Shown here: in pieces, positions 21,186 to 55,065 of the stretch
Layout: every line of letters begins with the position of its first letter
Numbering within the stretch: position 1 is the stretch's first letter
Notes under the pieces: model-generated
Databases searched by the model: none
What the model was told of the DNA's origin: nothing
The model's input: only the letters and a program-made list of their open reading frames with translations
Translations under genes and position numbers: made by a program
Assembly: GCF_900112205.1 (NCBI RefSeq)
Contig: NZ_FOKW01000002.1
Coordinates: forward strand, 434,001 to 498,000
Reading direction: 5' to 3'
Length of the DNA: 64,000 bases
Origin: Natronobacterium haloterrestre
Lineage (GTDB): Archaea; Halobacteriota; Halobacteria; Halobacteriales; Natrialbaceae

Positions 21186-21953
21186 TCAGTCGGCCGGTTC
21201 GCCCGGGTCCGGGTTCCTGTTGGCGGTCCCGGGTTCGTCACCAGTCCCGCCACTTCCGCCGCCGAAGAACGGGAGCAGCGTCGTCGACGCCGCGGTCTTC
21301 TCGAGCGCGGCGACGTTCCGGAGCACGAGTCCGCCGAACCCGAGCAACAGCACCAGGTCGACGTACGTCGCGCCGATTTGCCCGACGAAACTGTCGGTCA
21401 GCGCGAGGTTCTGCTCCGAGACGATGCCGAGGACGATCAGCCCCGCCCAGGCGAGCAACACGAGGTACTCGAGTTTCCGGTAGAGCAGCGTCCGGCGCTC
21501 GTCGACGCTCGCGGCCGACCGCGCGACCGGGCCGACGAGCAGGGAAACGAGGCCGACGAACGAGGCGAGGATCACCAGCGAGGCGATCGACCCCGCCGTC
21601 CCGCTCAGGATCCAGCTCGCGAACGTCGCCCAGAGGGTGCCCATGCTACACGCGAAGACGGCGACCGTTCGTTTCGGCCCCGCGTCGGCGACGGCCCCGA
21701 GTACGTAGCTGATCCCCGCCCAGGCGACCGTGTAGCCGACGAACCTGACGACCGATTCTTCGTTCGTCGTGACGGTACCGATCTCCGCCCGCATGAGCAG
21801 GTAGGTCACGCTCATGGCCCCGCAGGCGAGCACGGTCGCGTAGCCGTACCGGCGGACCGACGGCTCGAGGCGTCGCGTCGCAACCAGCAGGCCGACCGCG
21901 CCCAGGCCGAGCAGTGCACTCGAGACGAGGTAGATCGTCGCGTGTGAGATCAC
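21186..21953 (-). CDS. Seven-helix opsin-family protein lacking the retinal lysine
   Basis: This 255-residue protein has seven predicted helices and matches bacteriorhodopsin (recalled sequence) along its length. Helix C aligns without gaps from VVRFVGYTVAW to VADA, with Arg70 at the place of R82 but Gly73 at D85 and Val84 at D96. Helix F keeps a Trp (W169 for W182) and a following SE pair (E180 for E194). Helix G has D199 for D212 and the GFGGLVLR match to GFGLILLR, but Leu203 where K216 binds retinal. So it should not form a Schiff base or pump protons. The GTG start overlaps the stop of a 40-residue ORF (GTGA), and an in-frame TGA three codons upstream fixes this start. It could be a sensor, scaffold or carotenoid/lipid-binding protein. 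Confidence 0.75.
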   Translation of the reverse strand: MISHATIYLVSSALLGLGAVGLLVATRRLEPSVRRYGYATVLACGAMSVTYLLMRAEIGTVTTNEESVVRFVGYTVAWAGISYVLGAVADAGPKRTVAVFACSMGTLWATFASWILSGTAGSIASLVILASFVGLVSLLVGPVARSAASVDERRTLLYRKLEYLVLLAWAGLIVLGIVSEQNLALTDSFVGQIGATYVDLVLLLGFGGLVLRNVAALEKTAASTTLLPFFGGGSGGTGDEPGTANRNPDPGEPAD

Positions 21954-48770: not shown

Positions 48771-50408
48771 ATGATGGGAACCCGGGACGACCTCGCCGAA
48801 GCTACGCTCGAGACGCTCCCGCTCACGGTGGCCGTCCTCGACTCGACGGGCCGAATCCTGTTGACGAACCAGTCGTGGCGGGAGTTCAACCCCGACGACG
48901 ACAACCACGTCGGCGTCAATTACGTCGCGACCGCCGAGATGGGCGACGAGGAGGGGGACGACGAACACGCCCGCCGGGCAGTCGAGGGGCTCGAAGCGGT
49001 TCTGGAGGGCGAACGGGAGACGTTCTCCATGGAGTACCCCTGCCACACGCCCGAGGAGAAACAGTGGTTCCTGATGCGAGCCAGCCGGTTCACCGTCGAC
49101 GGCGACGTGCGGGTCTCGGTCGTCCACCTCGACATCACCGACCGAAAACTCGCGGAACTCGACGCCGAGGCGGCCCTCGAGCGCCTGCGCGAGCAACAGC
49201 GCAACCTCGAGCACGTCCTCGAGCGAATCGACGGCCTCGTCCGCGACGTCACCGACGCCGCCGTGGGCGCGGAGAGTCGCAGTGAGATCGAACACGGCGT
49301 CTGTCGGGAACTCGCGGACACCGATCCGTACGTGCTCGCCTGGATCGGCCGCGTCGACGTCACCACCAGGCGCGTCTCGCCCCGCGAGTGGGCCGGCCAC
49401 AGGGAGGTGCCACTGGAGAACGACGAACTCGTCCTCTCCTCCGACGAGAGCCATCCCGCGGTGCAGGCGCTCAGGGAGGGCGAACCGCGGGCCATCCAGG
49501 ACGTCGCCGAGTTCGATCACGCCGATCACTGGTGGCCGACCGGCGCGGGCGATCTGTTCCGATCGGTCGCCGCGATCCCGCTCGAGTACGGCGACGTCAC
49601 CTACGGCGTGCTCGTAGTGTTCGCCGAGGACGCCGACGCCTTCGACGAGCGGGAACTGCTCGTCCTCGAGTCGCTTGCCGGGACCGTCTCGACGGCGATG
49701 AACGCGATCGAGGCCCGGCGGATGCTCACTACCGAGACGATCGTCGAACTCGAGGCGACAATCGAGGATCCGTCGCTGTTCGTGACGGCGCTTGCGACCG
49801 AACTCGGGGCGTCGGTGACCTACCGCGGACTGACCTACGACAAGGAGGGAACCGCGCTCGCGGTCTTCTACGTCGACTGTACCGGAGGGGTCGAAGCGGT
49901 CGCTGCCGACCTGGACGGGATCGAGGACGCGACGATCCTCTCGGAGTACGAGGACGGCACCCTGCTGGAACTGGCGCTGTCCGACGGTGTCGTCACCGCG
50001 CTCGCCGATCACGGGGGCGTGATCCAGCGGTTCGATGCCGCACCCGACGACAGGGTCGCCGACCTGGCGCTGCAACTGCCCAACGGCCAGTCGGCCCGGT
50101 CGGTCTACGACCTCCTCGAAGAGCGGTACGAGCGGACGGAACTGATCAGCTACCGTGAATCGGATCGCCCGACGCGGACGCTACGGGACGTCGCGGCCGA
50201 ACTCGACTCGAAACTCACCGATCGCCAGGAGATGGCCCTCAGAAAGGCCTTCTACGCCGACTATTTCGAGTGGCCACGGGGGGTCTCGGGCGAAGAACTG
50301 GCGGAATCCATGGGTGTTTCCCGGTCGACGTATCACCAGCACCTCCGCGCCGCACAGCGAAAATTGCTCGAGGAACTGTTCGCCGTGGACCCCACTAGTG
50401 AGGGCTAG
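48771..50408 (+). CDS. Bat-like regulator (PAS-GAF-BAT-HTH-10) upstream of crtB
   Basis: This 545-residue protein has a PAS domain (about 10-125, ending LDITDRKLAELDAEAAL), a coiled-coil link, a GAF domain (about 155-310), a Bat-specific beta domain and an HTH-10 motif with LTDRQEMALRKAFYADYFEWPRGVSGEELAESMGV. The architecture matches the Halobacterium bacterio-opsin activator Bat, with PAS and GAF modules proposed to sense redox and light. It lies 63 bp ahead of crtB, and its last codons contain a Bat-type upstream activator sequence, so crtB is a probable target. An alternative is a paralogue with another regulon. Confidence 0.88.
   Translation: MMGTRDDLAEATLETLPLTVAVLDSTGRILLTNQSWREFNPDDDNHVGVNYVATAEMGDEEGDDEHARRAVEGLEAVLEGERETFSMEYPCHTPEEKQWFLMRASRFTVDGDVRVSVVHLDITDRKLAELDAEAALERLREQQRNLEHVLERIDGLVRDVTDAAVGAESRSEIEHGVCRELADTDPYVLAWIGRVDVTTRRVSPREWAGHREVPLENDELVLSSDESHPAVQALREGEPRAIQDVAEFDHADHWWPTGAGDLFRSVAAIPLEYGDVTYGVLVVFAEDADAFDERELLVLESLAGTVSTAMNAIEARRMLTTETIVELEATIEDPSLFVTALATELGASVTYRGLTYDKEGTALAVFYVDCTGGVEAVAADLDGIEDATILSEYEDGTLLELALSDGVVTALADHGGVIQRFDAAPDDRVADLALQLPNGQSARSVYDLLEERYERTELISYRESDRPTRTLRDVAAELDSKLTDRQEMALRKAFYADYFEWPRGVSGEELAESMGVSRSTYHQHLRAAQRKLLEELFAVDPTSEG
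50389..50404 (+). promoter_or_regulatory. Bat-type upstream activator sequence of crtB
   Basis: ACCCCACTAGTGAGGG matches the Halobacterium bop/crtB1 upstream activator consensus as I recall it (ACcnnactagTTnGG), with one mismatch (the second T of TT is G). It lies inside the final codons of the Bat-like gene (GAC CCC ACT AGT GAG) and ends 7 bases before the TATA box, the same spacing as in bop. Confidence 0.55.
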
Positions 50409-50410
50409 GT

Positions 50411-50419
50411 ATTTTATAC
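50411..50419 (+). promoter_or_regulatory. TATA box of crtB
   Basis: ATTTTATAC lies 3-11 bases after the Bat-like gene stop and about 57 bases before the crtB ATG, so crtB has its own promoter with a leader of about 25-30 bases. Confidence 0.7.
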
Positions 50420-50471
50420 GTTCCTGTCGTACAGAAAACACCACGCAGTCACCGGACGCTACCAATCATAA

Positions 50472-51434
50472 ATGAGACAGGAACACATCGAGAGAGGGAA
50501 GGCGATACAGAGACGGACCGGAAAAACGTTCTACCTCGCGACGCGGTTCCTCCCCGAGCGCGTTCGTCACTCGACTCACGTTCTCTACGCGTTTTTCCGG
50601 ATCGCGGACGAGGTCGTCGACGACGCCGCGGATACCCCTCGGGAAGAGCAACGGGCGGAACTCGAGAAGTTGCGCGCCCAGGCGCTGGGCGAGGAGCCAG
50701 CGGACGATCCGGTTCTGGAAGCCTTCTGTGAACTCCGGGAGCGCCACGACATCGCCGACGAGGAGGTCGAGGAGTTCGTCGACGCGATGGTCACCGACAT
50801 CACCCGGAGCCGATACGAGACCTACGACGACCTCGAGGCGTACATGCGGGGGTCGGCCGCGGCGGTCGGCGTGATGATGACCGCGATCATGGACCTCGAC
50901 CCCGAGATGGAGGAGGCTGCGCTCCCTCACGCGATCAAACTCGGCGAGGCCTTCCAGCTGACCAACTTCCTCCGGGACGTCCGGGAGGACATCGTCGAAC
51001 GCGACCGCATCTACCTCCCCCTCGAGACGCTTCGCGAGCACGGGGTATCTCCCGAGGAGATCGAGAACTTCGAGTACTCCCCGGCGTTCGCGGCGGCGAT
51101 GGAGGACGAACTCGAGCGGACTGAGGAACTGTACCGCGAGGGCGTCGCCGGGATCCGGTATCTCCCCGAGGACTGCCAGCTACCGGTGTTGCTGGCGGCG
51201 GTGTTGTACGCCGAGCACCACTCGCTCATCCGGGCACAGGACTACGACGTCCTTACCGAAGAACCGTCGCTGTCGACGGCCCGGAAGCTGTGGTGTCTCG
51301 CGAAGACCCGCTGGCACTGGCACTGGAACCGCGATCCGGAGGCGGTGTTCCAGCGGGTATCCGCGGTGCCGACGGCCGACCCCGGACCCGACCACCGCGG
51401 TCCGGAGCCCGGGGACGGGGTCCCGACGCGGTAG
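50472..51434 (+). CDS. crtB: Phytoene synthase
   Basis: This 320-residue trans-prenyltransferase-like protein joins two geranylgeranyl diphosphates into phytoene, the first committed carotenoid step. Both Asp-rich motifs are visible: RIADEVVDDAAD (about residues 41-52) and QLTNFLRDVREDIVERDRIYLP (around 160-180, shown in part). It is the entry enzyme to the bacterioruberin operon opposite (crtD-lyeJ-cruF) and is convergent with cruF. Confidence 0.95.
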   Translation: MRQEHIERGKAIQRRTGKTFYLATRFLPERVRHSTHVLYAFFRIADEVVDDAADTPREEQRAELEKLRAQALGEEPADDPVLEAFCELRERHDIADEEVEEFVDAMVTDITRSRYETYDDLEAYMRGSAAAVGVMMTAIMDLDPEMEEAALPHAIKLGEAFQLTNFLRDVREDIVERDRIYLPLETLREHGVSPEEIENFEYSPAFAAAMEDELERTEELYREGVAGIRYLPEDCQLPVLLAAVLYAEHHSLIRAQDYDVLTEEPSLSTARKLWCLAKTRWHWHWNRDPEAVFQRVSAVPTADPGPDHRGPEPGDGVPTR

Positions 51435-51488: not shown

Positions 51489-52433
51489 TCAGGTGCCGTA
51501 CCGGGACGGAAGCGCCGCCAGCACCATCTCCCGGTCGTACCGGTCGGTCCTGAACAGGCCGAGACAGAACAGGCCGGCGACCCCTGCAGCGATCCAGTTG
51601 CCGTAGAGGAGATTGATCGACCCCCAGAGCAACACGAAGCTCACCAGGTCGTCCAGCATGAACTCGCACTCGCGAACCCGGGCGAGCAGCGCCGTCCGGT
51701 CGAACGCGAGGTCGACGAGCGCGACGGCGACGGTACCCGAGAGCACCCAGCCCCCGTAGTTCGAGAGCGGGACGCCGTAGAAGCCGCCGGACTCGAAACT
51801 CCAGAACCCGATCGCGACGGCGGCCGGATCGAGGACGACGTCGATGGCGACGACGGCGAGGATCGCGGCCGGGATCCGCACGAGGGGGGTTCCGCTCCAG
51901 TCGCCGAGCACCAGCAGCGCCAGCAGGTAGCCGTTCAAAACGAGCGGGATGAAAAACAGCGGGAGCGCGACCGGGACCGTATCGAACAGCATCGGTCCCA
52001 GCTGGATCGCGTACTCGAATGCCCCGTACGGCCAGTCGGTCGCCACGCCGACGATCTCGATCGCGTACGTGTACGCCGTCAGGAGGCCGAGTGCGGCCAG
52101 CGCGCGGCGATCGATCCGCGGCAGGATCCCGACCAGCAGCGGCGAGCGCATGACGGCGGTGCCGAACAGTAACAACAGCGGGTTGTACGCCAGCGGCTCG
52201 GGCAGAAGGCCCTCGGCGCTCGCGACGAGCGACAGCGCGCCGACGACGGGGAAGACGACCGCGATCGTGAACCGGTTCTCGCGGATGAGCGCCTCGAGGC
52301 GTCGCTGAACGGTTGCGCGTCGGTCCGTCCGCTCCTGTTCCTGTTCCCGCTCCCGTTTCCGTTCACGTTCACGTTCACGTTCGCGGTCCCGGCTCCCCTC
52401 GTACTCTCGAGTGCGGGCGTTCGACCTATCCAT
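51489..52433 (-). CDS. cruF: Bisanhydrobacterioruberin hydratase CruF
   Basis: This 314-residue membrane protein with about eight helices adds water to the end groups in the last step of bacterioruberin synthesis. It shows YAIEIVGVATDWPYGAFEY and DPAAVAIGFWSFESGGFYGVPLSNYGGW, typical of CruF. The N-terminus carries an odd RERERERERKREREQEQER tract coded by a simple repeat. Its ATG overlaps the end of lyeJ by 8 bases, so it is last in the crtD-lyeJ-cruF operon. Confidence 0.93.
   Translation of the reverse strand: MDRSNARTREYEGSRDRERERERERKREREQEQERTDRRATVQRRLEALIRENRFTIAVVFPVVGALSLVASAEGLLPEPLAYNPLLLLFGTAVMRSPLLVGILPRIDRRALAALGLLTAYTYAIEIVGVATDWPYGAFEYAIQLGPMLFDTVPVALPLFFIPLVLNGYLLALLVLGDWSGTPLVRIPAAILAVVAIDVVLDPAAVAIGFWSFESGGFYGVPLSNYGGWVLSGTVAVALVDLAFDRTALLARVRECEFMLDDLVSFVLLWGSINLLYGNWIAAGVAGLFCLGLFRTDRYDREMVLAALPSRYGT
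52345..52390 (-). repeat. Simple-sequence repeat coding the Arg/Glu tract of CruF
   Basis: Minus-strand hexamer CGTGAA/CGTGAA-like units recur, coding alternating Arg and Glu (with Lys and Gln further on). The hexamer keeps frame if it slips. Length polymorphism between strains is expected. Confidence 0.7.
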
Positions 52434-53346
52434 TGACGAGCCTCCAGAGGGCACCCATCGTCAAGGCAGTGCCGACGACGGTGTTGATCGCCGGAAACCA
52501 CCAGTAGGCCCGATCGACGGGGACGCTCGAGCCGGCCAGCACGGCGACGAGTGCGGGGTAGACGACCATGACGGCTCCCAGTCGGTAGTCGATCGCGCCG
52601 AACGCGAGGGCGCTTGCCAGCCAGCACGCGCCGCAGTAGGCGTACGTGCGACGTTCGCCGAGCATCGTGGCCGTCGTTCGAATCCCGGCCGCACGGTCGG
52701 GCTCGATGTCGGGAATCGCCGAGAACGTGTGCATCCCCATGGCCCACAGCCAGCCGCCGACGACGGCGAGTGCGGGCGGCTGGGTGCCGGCGACGGCCGC
52801 GTAGGCCGCCGCGCCGGGCGCGATGTAGAGCCCGTTCGAGACCGAGTCGAGCAGCGGCGTCGTCTTGAACCGGACCGGCGGCGCGCTGTAGGCCGCACCC
52901 AGGGCGAGGAAGACGACGATCCAGGGCCAGGCTGGCGCCGGAACGACGGGAACGAACAGCAACGGCAGGGCGGCACAGAGGCCGACCGCGGCGGGGACGT
53001 ACCCCTGTCCCCGGTACCGGGCCTCCTTGTCCTCCTTTTTCGGGTTCTCCGTGTCGATCTCGCGGTCGTAGACGTCGTTGATCCCGTAGAGGAAGACGTT
53101 CGCCGGGAGCAGGAAGTACGCGAACAGGACGACCGCCGCCGGCGCGAACAGGTCGGCGCGTGCCTCGGCCGCGTAGGCGACCCCGACCAGTACGGGACCG
53201 GCGAGGTAGAGCCAGAATCGCGGCCGCGAGAGGACCAGCAGGTAACGGAGTCGGTGGGCGAGCCCGTCCCGCTGGTCGGACTTGCCCTCGGCTCCGGCTC
53301 CGGTTCCGTCTCCATCGCCCCCTCGCGTCGACGCGTTCTCGCCCAT
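52426..53346 (-). CDS. lyeJ: Lycopene elongase/hydratase (UbiA family) LyeJ
   Basis: This 306-residue UbiA-type prenyltransferase has the Asp-rich motif YGINDVYDREIDTENPKK and the second motif SAIPDIEPDRAAGIRTTATMLG, with about nine helices. In haloarchaea LyeJ adds C5 units and water to lycopene, making C50 carotenoid intermediates. It is 14 bp after crtD and overlaps cruF by 8 bases. ATG 53346 (MGENAST) is preferred over the GTG-type start at 53415, which overlaps crtD. Confidence 0.93.
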   Translation of the reverse strand: MGENASTRGGDGDGTGAGAEGKSDQRDGLAHRLRYLLVLSRPRFWLYLAGPVLVGVAYAAEARADLFAPAAVVLFAYFLLPANVFLYGINDVYDREIDTENPKKEDKEARYRGQGYVPAAVGLCAALPLLFVPVVPAPAWPWIVVFLALGAAYSAPPVRFKTTPLLDSVSNGLYIAPGAAAYAAVAGTQPPALAVVGGWLWAMGMHTFSAIPDIEPDRAAGIRTTATMLGERRTYAYCGACWLASALAFGAIDYRLGAVMVVYPALVAVLAGSSVPVDRAYWWFPAINTVVGTALTMGALWRLVNG

Positions 53347-53360
53347 TGCTAGTACCGTTG

Positions 53361-54896
53361 TCACCCCCGATCCTCGAGAATCTTTTCCGCTGTCAGTTCG
53401 CCGCTGATGAGACACATCGGAACGCCGATCCCCGGCGTCGTGTCACCGCCGACGAAGTAGAGCCCGTCGACCTCCTTCGAGCGGTGTGGCGGCCGGAACA
53501 GTGCCGTCTGGCGGAGCGTATGAGCCAGCCCGAGCGCCGTCCCGTCGTAGCTGTTGTACCGGCTGGCGAAGTCGTCGATACAGAACCGCTCCTCGACGAC
53601 GATCCGGTCGCGGATGTCCGTCCCGGTGTGTTCCGCGATGTCGGCGAGAATCTCGTCTCGATACTGGTCGCGGATCTCGGGGGTGTCCTCGAGGCCCGGC
53701 GCGATCGGGACGAGGACGAACAGGTTGCTGTGGCCCTCCGGGGCGACGTCGTCGTCGGTTTCCGAGGGGACACAGAGGTAGTAAGCCGGATCGTCGGGCC
53801 AGGCGGGTTCCTCGAAGATGCTGTCGAAGTGGTCCTCCCAGTCGGTCGGGAGCACGAGCGTGTGGTGAGCCAGTTCGTCGACGTCCCCCTCGACGCCGAG
53901 ATACAGCAGGAACGCCGACGGCGCGTACGTCCGGGACTCCCAGTAGTCGGCATCGTAGCCGCGCTGTTCGGGTTTGAGCAGGTCCTGTTCGGTGTGGGCG
54001 TAGTCGGTGTTGCTGACGACCAGGTCCGGGCGGAGCTGTCCCTCGGGGGTCTCGACGAGGAACGCCCCCTCGCGGCCCTTGATGGCCGTCGCCGGCCGGC
54101 CGGTGTCGTACTCGACGCCCAGTTCCCGGCCGAGGTCGGCGATGCCGTCGACGACGCTTTTCATCCCGCCCTCGGGGTACCAGACGCCGAGGTTGAAGTC
54201 GACGTGGCTCATCAGGTTGTACAGCGCCGGCGTGTTCTTCGGCGACCCACCGAGGAACACCAGCGTGTACTGCATGATCTGCTGGAGCTTCGGGTGGTCG
54301 AAGTAGTTCTCGACGTGGTCCTGCATCGACCCCAGCAGCGTGAGCCCGCGGGCCTGCCGGGCCACGTCGAGGTCGAGGTAGTCCCGGAGCCGGGACCGGT
54401 CCTCGTAGACGAAGTGTTTCATCCCCACCTCGTAGTTCTCCCTGGACTTCTCGAGGTACCGCTCTAACGTCTCTCCCGCTCCGTCCTCGTACTCCTCGAA
54501 GATCTCCTTCGTCCGCTCGAGGTCCGGCGTCACGTCGACCCGATCCCCGTGTGCTCGCGAGCCTGGCTCGCTCGTATCGTCCGCGGAACCCCGTTCCGCG
54601 CTATCCTTGAAGAAGATCCGGTAGTGGGGATCCAGTTGGGTGAGCCGGTAGTAGTCCGACGGCGTTCGATCGAAGTCCCCGAAGAACCGCTCGAACACGT
54701 CGGGCATCAGGTACCACGAGGGGCCCATATCGAACCGGAACCCCTCGATCTCGAGTCGGCTCGCCCGCCCGCCGAGTTGCTCGTTCTTTTCGATGACGCG
54801 CACGTCGGCACCCGCGTCGGCGAGGTAACAGGCGGTCGAGAGTCCCCCGATCCCGCCGCCGATCACGACGACTGATTCACCGGCCAGCGCTTGCAT
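53361..54896 (-). CDS. crtD: Carotenoid 3,4-desaturase (CrtD/CrtI family)
   Basis: This 511-residue FAD-dependent desaturase has VVVIGGGIGGLSTACYLADAGADVRVIEK, the GGRASRLEIEGFRFDMGPSWYL lead (in outline), YPEGGMKSVVDG, and the C-terminal YFVGGDTTPGIGVPMCLISG. Adjacent lyeJ and cruF suggest it is CrtD, acting on C50 intermediates, not the phytoene desaturase CrtI; the sequence alone does not separate them. A divergent TATA element (about 54922-54930) lies 26-34 bases ahead of the ATG at 54896. Confidence 0.9.
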   Translation of the reverse strand: MQALAGESVVVIGGGIGGLSTACYLADAGADVRVIEKNEQLGGRASRLEIEGFRFDMGPSWYLMPDVFERFFGDFDRTPSDYYRLTQLDPHYRIFFKDSAERGSADDTSEPGSRAHGDRVDVTPDLERTKEIFEEYEDGAGETLERYLEKSRENYEVGMKHFVYEDRSRLRDYLDLDVARQARGLTLLGSMQDHVENYFDHPKLQQIMQYTLVFLGGSPKNTPALYNLMSHVDFNLGVWYPEGGMKSVVDGIADLGRELGVEYDTGRPATAIKGREGAFLVETPEGQLRPDLVVSNTDYAHTEQDLLKPEQRGYDADYWESRTYAPSAFLLYLGVEGDVDELAHHTLVLPTDWEDHFDSIFEEPAWPDDPAYYLCVPSETDDDVAPEGHSNLFVLVPIAPGLEDTPEIRDQYRDEILADIAEHTGTDIRDRIVVEERFCIDDFASRYNSYDGTALGLAHTLRQTALFRPPHRSKEVDGLYFVGGDTTPGIGVPMCLISGELTAEKILEDRG

Positions 54897-55065
54897 GTCT
54901 CGTCGTGACTGTCGGCGTAGGGATAAACGTACGGCATATTTGCGTAGGGATCGACGCTCTGCGGATCGGGAGACGGTAGCAAGGGCAGGGCCAAGACAGA
55001 AGGCGACGCTCGTACGCATCTACTCGAGGGAGTACGCCGAGGAATCGACCGACGAAGATACCAAA

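Follow-up and report, generated by a model that had tools for sequence, protein, structure and literature searches.

The window, a stretch of 64,000 nucleotides of Natronobacterium haloterrestre DNA, contains a carotenoid gene cluster in which a regulator gene lies directly ahead of crtB (Table 1). The latter was assigned by its SQS_PSY domain together with its carotenoid gene neighborhood. A 16-base element, ACCCCACTAGTGAGGG, is contained in the last codons of the regulator gene (GAC CCC ACT AGT GAG GGC TAG, in frame D-P-T-S-E-G-stop). From this element to the TTTTATA of the crtB promoter there are 7 bases, and the crtB ATG lies 83 bases from its start. In the bop promoter of Halobacterium, the upstream activator sequence (UAS) spans positions -52 to -39 and the TATA box positions -30 to -25; the UAS consensus is reportedly ACCcnactagTTnG (Baliga and DasSarma, in 1999). 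A prior sequence-only reading of this DNA had placed a Bat-type UAS ahead of crtB, one mismatch from the Halobacterium consensus and 7 bases from the TATA box, and both counts were borne out. The prior reading did not mention a second conserved block, CTGTCGTA, which follows the TATA box ahead of the crtB start and for which we know of no factor.

Table 1. Features of the crtB locus and its promoter (positions in the window)
Feature	Position	Strand	Remarks
Bat-clade regulator gene	48771..50408	+	PAS_4, GAF, BAT (PF15915), HTH_10 (PF04967); 545 aa
UAS-type site ACCCCACTAGTGAGGG	50389..50404	+	Exact ACCNNACTNNTNNGG match; 6/8 palindrome pairs around CTAG
TATA-box-like element TATTTTATA of crtB	50410..50418	+	Conserved columns 21-29 of promoter alignment
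Second conserved promoter block CTGTCGTA	50424..50431	+	Downstream of TATA; alignment columns 35-42
crtB, phytoene synthase family	50472..51434	+	PF00494 (SQS_PSY), E=3e-71; 320 aa
Caroten_synth protein gene	51489-52454		Carotenoid cluster beside crtB
Desaturase gene, amine-oxidase type	53361-55019	-	Carotenoid cluster beside crtB

The regulator matches PF15915 (E=8e-36) and, at its C terminus, PF04967 (E=4e-20), the domains expected of the Bat clade. HTH_10/BAT genes are also found directly upstream of crtB in several other haloarchaeal families. In an IQ-TREE phylogeny of 37 rows, which included a sample of the HTH_10 paralogs from this genome, a clade of 21 rows (support of 98/98) united Halobacterium Bat with one paralog from this genome and with most of the regulators encoded beside crtB in several families. 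The other sampled paralogs fell outside this clade, as did the adjacent HTH_10 genes at loci L184 and L282. Within the tree, Halobacterium Bat is the nearest neighbor of the Natrialbaceae proteins with modest support (80/68), and Bat-clade members have in common a helix of the type ELAESM-xx-STxHQHLxAAxxKL. The window protein aligns with Halobacterium Bat at 32% over 415 aa, covering the GAF, BAT, and HTH parts but not the LOV-type PAS. While Halobacterium Bat carries the LOV motif as GANHRFLQG, the motif N-x-R-(F/L)-L-Q is absent from the PAS_4 domain of the window protein, which also gave no match to a receiver domain. Given the lack of a LOV-type PAS, we classed the protein as a Bat-clade regulator rather than as Bat itself, and light control, which the prior reading had suggested along with oxygen control as the alternative, is unsupported for this protein. 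Strong orthologs (E<1e-200) were retrieved from 35 of 74 genomes and lie directly upstream of crtB where both genes were listed, as judged by comparing coordinates by eye.

To gauge conservation, 47 crtB loci from Natrialbaceae records were combined with further genomes to give 94 distinct promoters. Three conserved blocks stand out in these: the UAS site, the TATA box, and CTGTCGTA, which begins about 5 bases past the TATA box and is conserved in Natrialbaceae loci L009-L055. In this alignment, anchored on a profile that includes the site and TATA box and thereby partly favors their columns, the GTGAGGG columns carry 1.1-1.9 bits and each of the 20 positions preceding the site about 0.01-0.3 bit; CTGTCGTA lies outside that profile. 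The distance from site to TATA box is near-fixed throughout the 94 promoters, with the 7-base spacing conserved across the family. Among unique Natrialbaceae promoters with the neighboring regulator gene, the core is present in exact or near form in 51 of 51, although Natrinema-like species have lost the left half of the site despite having the neighbor. The most conserved half, GTGAGGG, differs from the half most stressed in the Halobacterium consensus.

The motif by itself is no proof, since loose matches to it occur at chance level. Pattern ACCCNNCTAGTNNGGG has a single exact match in the window, the crtB site, and with up to 2 mismatches it was observed 5 times versus 5.0 expected. Such figures would suit a chance resemblance within a GC-rich coding end. 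This explanation has a negligible probability against the conservation across the family, the single perfect occurrence in the genome, and an enrichment over shuffled sequences outside the family; the promoter alignment and the shuffles rule it out, and we regard the conservation of the site as decisive against an origin by chance. Over the 4.5-Mb genome, ACTAGTGAGGG occurs exactly once, at crtB, and ACCCNACTAGTTNGG is found within 1 mismatch in only two places. None of the one-mismatch ACTAGTGAGGG sites in the genome has a TATA box at the correct distance (flanks read by eye), and among six exact ACCNNACTNGTNNGG sites a properly placed TATA box was read only in the flank of the crtB site. A regulon of several genes was accordingly rejected for this genome, as a TATA-linked site was found only at crtB; the element appears to be a one-target site here.

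The sequence-only reading had set the site within the end of the regulator gene. This is true of the present genome but is not a general rule. In 17 of the 51 unique promoters that have the neighbor, the regulator frame continues past the site start before reaching its stop codon, and in 15 of those 17 it runs through the entire site. Translation of 14 such tails gave 10 ending in PTSEG and close variants for the rest. In the remaining 34 of 51 promoters, the frame stops upstream of the site, yet the distance from site to TATA box is kept. Orthologs with an earlier stop lack a PTSEG-type tail and still have the DNA site in place, which indicates that it is the DNA itself that is conserved. We read the overlap between regulator gene and site as a secondary compaction in some species and not as a mechanism. 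An overlap of this kind could be taken to mean repression or feedback at the end of the regulator gene, for example by blocking read-through into crtB. We judge this highly unlikely in view of the 34 promoters without overlap and of the position of the site just upstream of the TATA box, which matches the placement of the activator site in bop.

Outside Natrialbaceae, 92 crtB promoters were searched for ACCNNACTNNTNNGG and compared with dinucleotide shuffles. Exact matches numbered 6 against 0.05 expected, and matches within 1 mismatch numbered 13 against 2.0 expected; 5 of the 13 adjoin a Bat-clade gene. Most crtB promoters of other haloarchaea are without the site, which is therefore not universal. 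The anticipated coincidence of motif and gene order, complete among the Natrialbaceae promoters with the neighbor, is mixed outside the family: of 12 promoters that adjoin an HTH_10 gene, 5 come within one mismatch of the pattern. Loci L273, L274 (genome G129), L276 (G191), and L267 (G080) have a Bat-clade gene, a ACCnnACTAGTnnGG-type site, and crtB in the same order; the L273 variant reads ACCAGT instead of the strict ACCnnACTAGTnnGG form, and the L274 site, ACCTGACTAGTCAGGT, is a perfect palindrome.

Halobacterium crtB (L263, G064) is among the 1-mismatch ACCNNACTNNTNNGG matches. We took the L263 gene to be crtB1 because it lies on a contig end that also carries bat. The bop promoters examined have a ACCnnACTnnTnnGG-type site shortly upstream of the start. 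The G064 bop gene, identical at 100% to Halobacterium salinarum bacterio-opsin, gave no UAS match in its promoter (L093), where only about 90 bases of contig precede the matched part; suspecting a broken or rearranged end, we left this promoter out as a control. In published work, a shared UAS mediates the control of bop, brp, bat, and crtB1 by Bat (PMC1502140, PMC1447603).

The regulator beside crtB is not the only Bat-clade gene of this genome. A second (G000:C15:275077-277047, equivalent to L304:7077-9047) carries the canonical LOV motif GRNCRLLQG and aligns with Halobacterium Bat at 36% over 573 aa. As such, the designation of the neighbor as regulator holds insofar as it belongs to the same clade as Halobacterium Bat but not insofar as it would be the sole candidate reader of the site. 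Of 25 sampled Natrialbaceae genomes lacking a close crtB neighbor, 23 gave matches to the LOV-type paralog at E<=1e-70; in two of these 23 (G200 and G371) the match is only 43-44% identical.

Each crtB promoter was scored for the neighbor, for the paralog (counted as present when an ortholog reached >=55% identity), and for the GTGAGGG core. Where the paralog is present without the neighbor, the core is kept in 19 of 20 promoters; where both genes are missing, the exact core occurs in 0 of 12, representing about four lineages. The association of core with paralog content has a Fisher p of 6e-8 with kinship ignored and with the 55% threshold and the definition of the core chosen after the data had been seen. 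Four of the 12 promoters belong to a second, un-neighbored type of crtB copy in genus g5, and five fall in g19/g22, a group that may never have had the site or may have another promoter altogether. In G200, one of the 12, the core is changed but the ACCNNACTNNTNNGG pattern is still matched in full. Outside g19/g22, 6 of 7 promoters lacking both genes retain CTGTCGTA within one mismatch, from which we conclude that the UAS was lost and not the whole promoter. At L180 and L181 (genus g5), a second crtB without a regulator gene has an eroded site and retains both the TATA box and the downstream block.

All four promoters with the neighbor and without the paralog keep a site that deviates from the UAS by at most one mismatch; in three, the core reads GTGTGGG. 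The site is full in genomes of this composition and in some of them more symmetric, as in G140 (ACCCTACTAGTGAGGG) and in G226 and G362 (ACCACACTAGTGTGGG). An independent-pairs test of neighbor against CTAG had only 2-4 pairs to draw on, too few to give it any power. Strict dependence of the site on the neighbor was rejected: promoters without the neighbor keep the core if the paralog is present, and the neighbor is thus not strictly required.

Two further explanations bear on these counts. In the first, the protein that actually reads the site is the LOV-type paralog, and the neighbor has another target or just a helper role. The 19 of 20 promoters that keep the core with the paralog alone speak for this, as do the LOV-type PAS that the paralog has in common with Halobacterium Bat and the alignment of the two proteins. 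We nevertheless find it unlikely, since G140, G226, and G362 keep a full site without the paralog and since neighbor and crtB remain together in the strong orthologs found. The second takes the site for a constitutive promoter element, or for the site of an unrelated factor, that resembles the Bat UAS by convergence. It draws on the constancy of GTGAGGG, which at its near-fixed TATA spacing is the most constant part even without the neighbor, and on the abundance of HTH_10 proteins, with 33 BAT-domain matches over the cutoff in this genome. Full ACCNNACTNNTNNGG sites before crtB in other families, including the close matches beside Bat-clade genes, and the absence of the core where both Bat-clade genes are missing, while the TATA box and downstream block mostly stay, make this a rather improbable explanation.

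In the interpretation that we favor as likely, the 16-base element is the UAS of the crtB promoter and is read by Bat-clade HTH_10 regulators. We base this on its conservation, on its near-fixed position before the TATA box, on its being of the same type as the Halobacterium crtB1 and bop sites, on the adjoining Bat-clade gene in several families, and on the absence of the exact core from the sampled promoters of genomes that have neither Bat-clade gene. The C-terminal HTH of the neighboring PAS_4-GAF-BAT-HTH_10 protein would contact the near-palindrome, with the protein probably bound as a dimer directly upstream of TBP/TFB. By analogy with Halobacterium, such a dimer would help TBP/TFB at the adjacent TATA box, and we infer that crtB would be activated rather than repressed. 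The GAF and PAS_4 parts of the neighbor are predicted to carry some signal. The LOV-type paralog probably can use the same crtB site, so that the promoter may receive a local signal together with a flavin-based light or redox signal. Such input through the paralog is possible because the LOV-like domain of a halobacterial BAT was shown to respond to the flavin redox state (PMC4682037). More tentatively, and with somewhat more doubt than confidence, we propose that the local PAS_4 sensor and the distant LOV sensor, with its photoactive Cys, share the one crtB site as an integration point, either of them being sufficient to maintain selection on it.

No bop gene had been seen near this crtB, and indeed no true opsin pump is nearby; however, four strong rhodopsin genes lie elsewhere in the genome, and a lysine-less opsin relative lies 28 kb from the crtB site. 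When aligned with two bacteriorhodopsin-type proteins, the latter (21186-21953, minus strand; Bac_rhodopsin, 29.5 bits) shows leucine where they have the retinal-binding lysine. Upstream of the genome's own bop-like genes, no sequence comes within 1 mismatch of the UAS. Neither bop nor brp was noticed beside crtB, and the locus does not qualify as a bop-regulon cluster.

Bacterioruberin is the red pigment of most haloarchaea, and little is understood of how its synthesis is controlled outside the bop cluster. The present analysis expands one experimentally known Halobacterium promoter site into a comparative system across dozens of species. It puts forward two regulators as candidates and, on the basis of gene content, predicts the species in which Bat-clade control of crtB should be gone. 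If two sensors do act on the site, the entry to carotenoid synthesis would be the point at which both are integrated. We found no description of the Natrialbaceae site in the openly accessible literature, a search beyond which most subscription journals lie.

Among known systems, DmsR shares the HTH_10 domain; the sampled HTH_10 paralogs of this genome, with one exception, fall outside the Bat clade, in a tree that did not include DmsR. The BAT-LOV* domain of a halobacterial Bat (PMC4682037) has its counterpart in the paralog, which likewise combines a LOV-type PAS, BAT, and HTH_10. The paralog keeps the adduct-forming Cys, however, where the studied domain has Pro and the Halobacterium Bat sequence read here has His, and the crtB neighbor differs in being without the LOV motif. 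Closest is the Bat/UAS system of H. salinarum at crtB1 and bop, with which the present locus shares the ACCnnACTnnTnnGG site type, the phytoene synthase step, and a regulator of the HTH_10/BAT clade. It differs in that the regulator gene immediately precedes crtB and lies outside any bop cluster, in having PAS_4 in place of the LOV-type PAS, no receiver match, and a single target site found in the genome, and in the limited similarity of the two proteins (32% over 415 aa). Judged by its sequence, the crtB site is a variant of the already known Bat/UAS control of crtB1.
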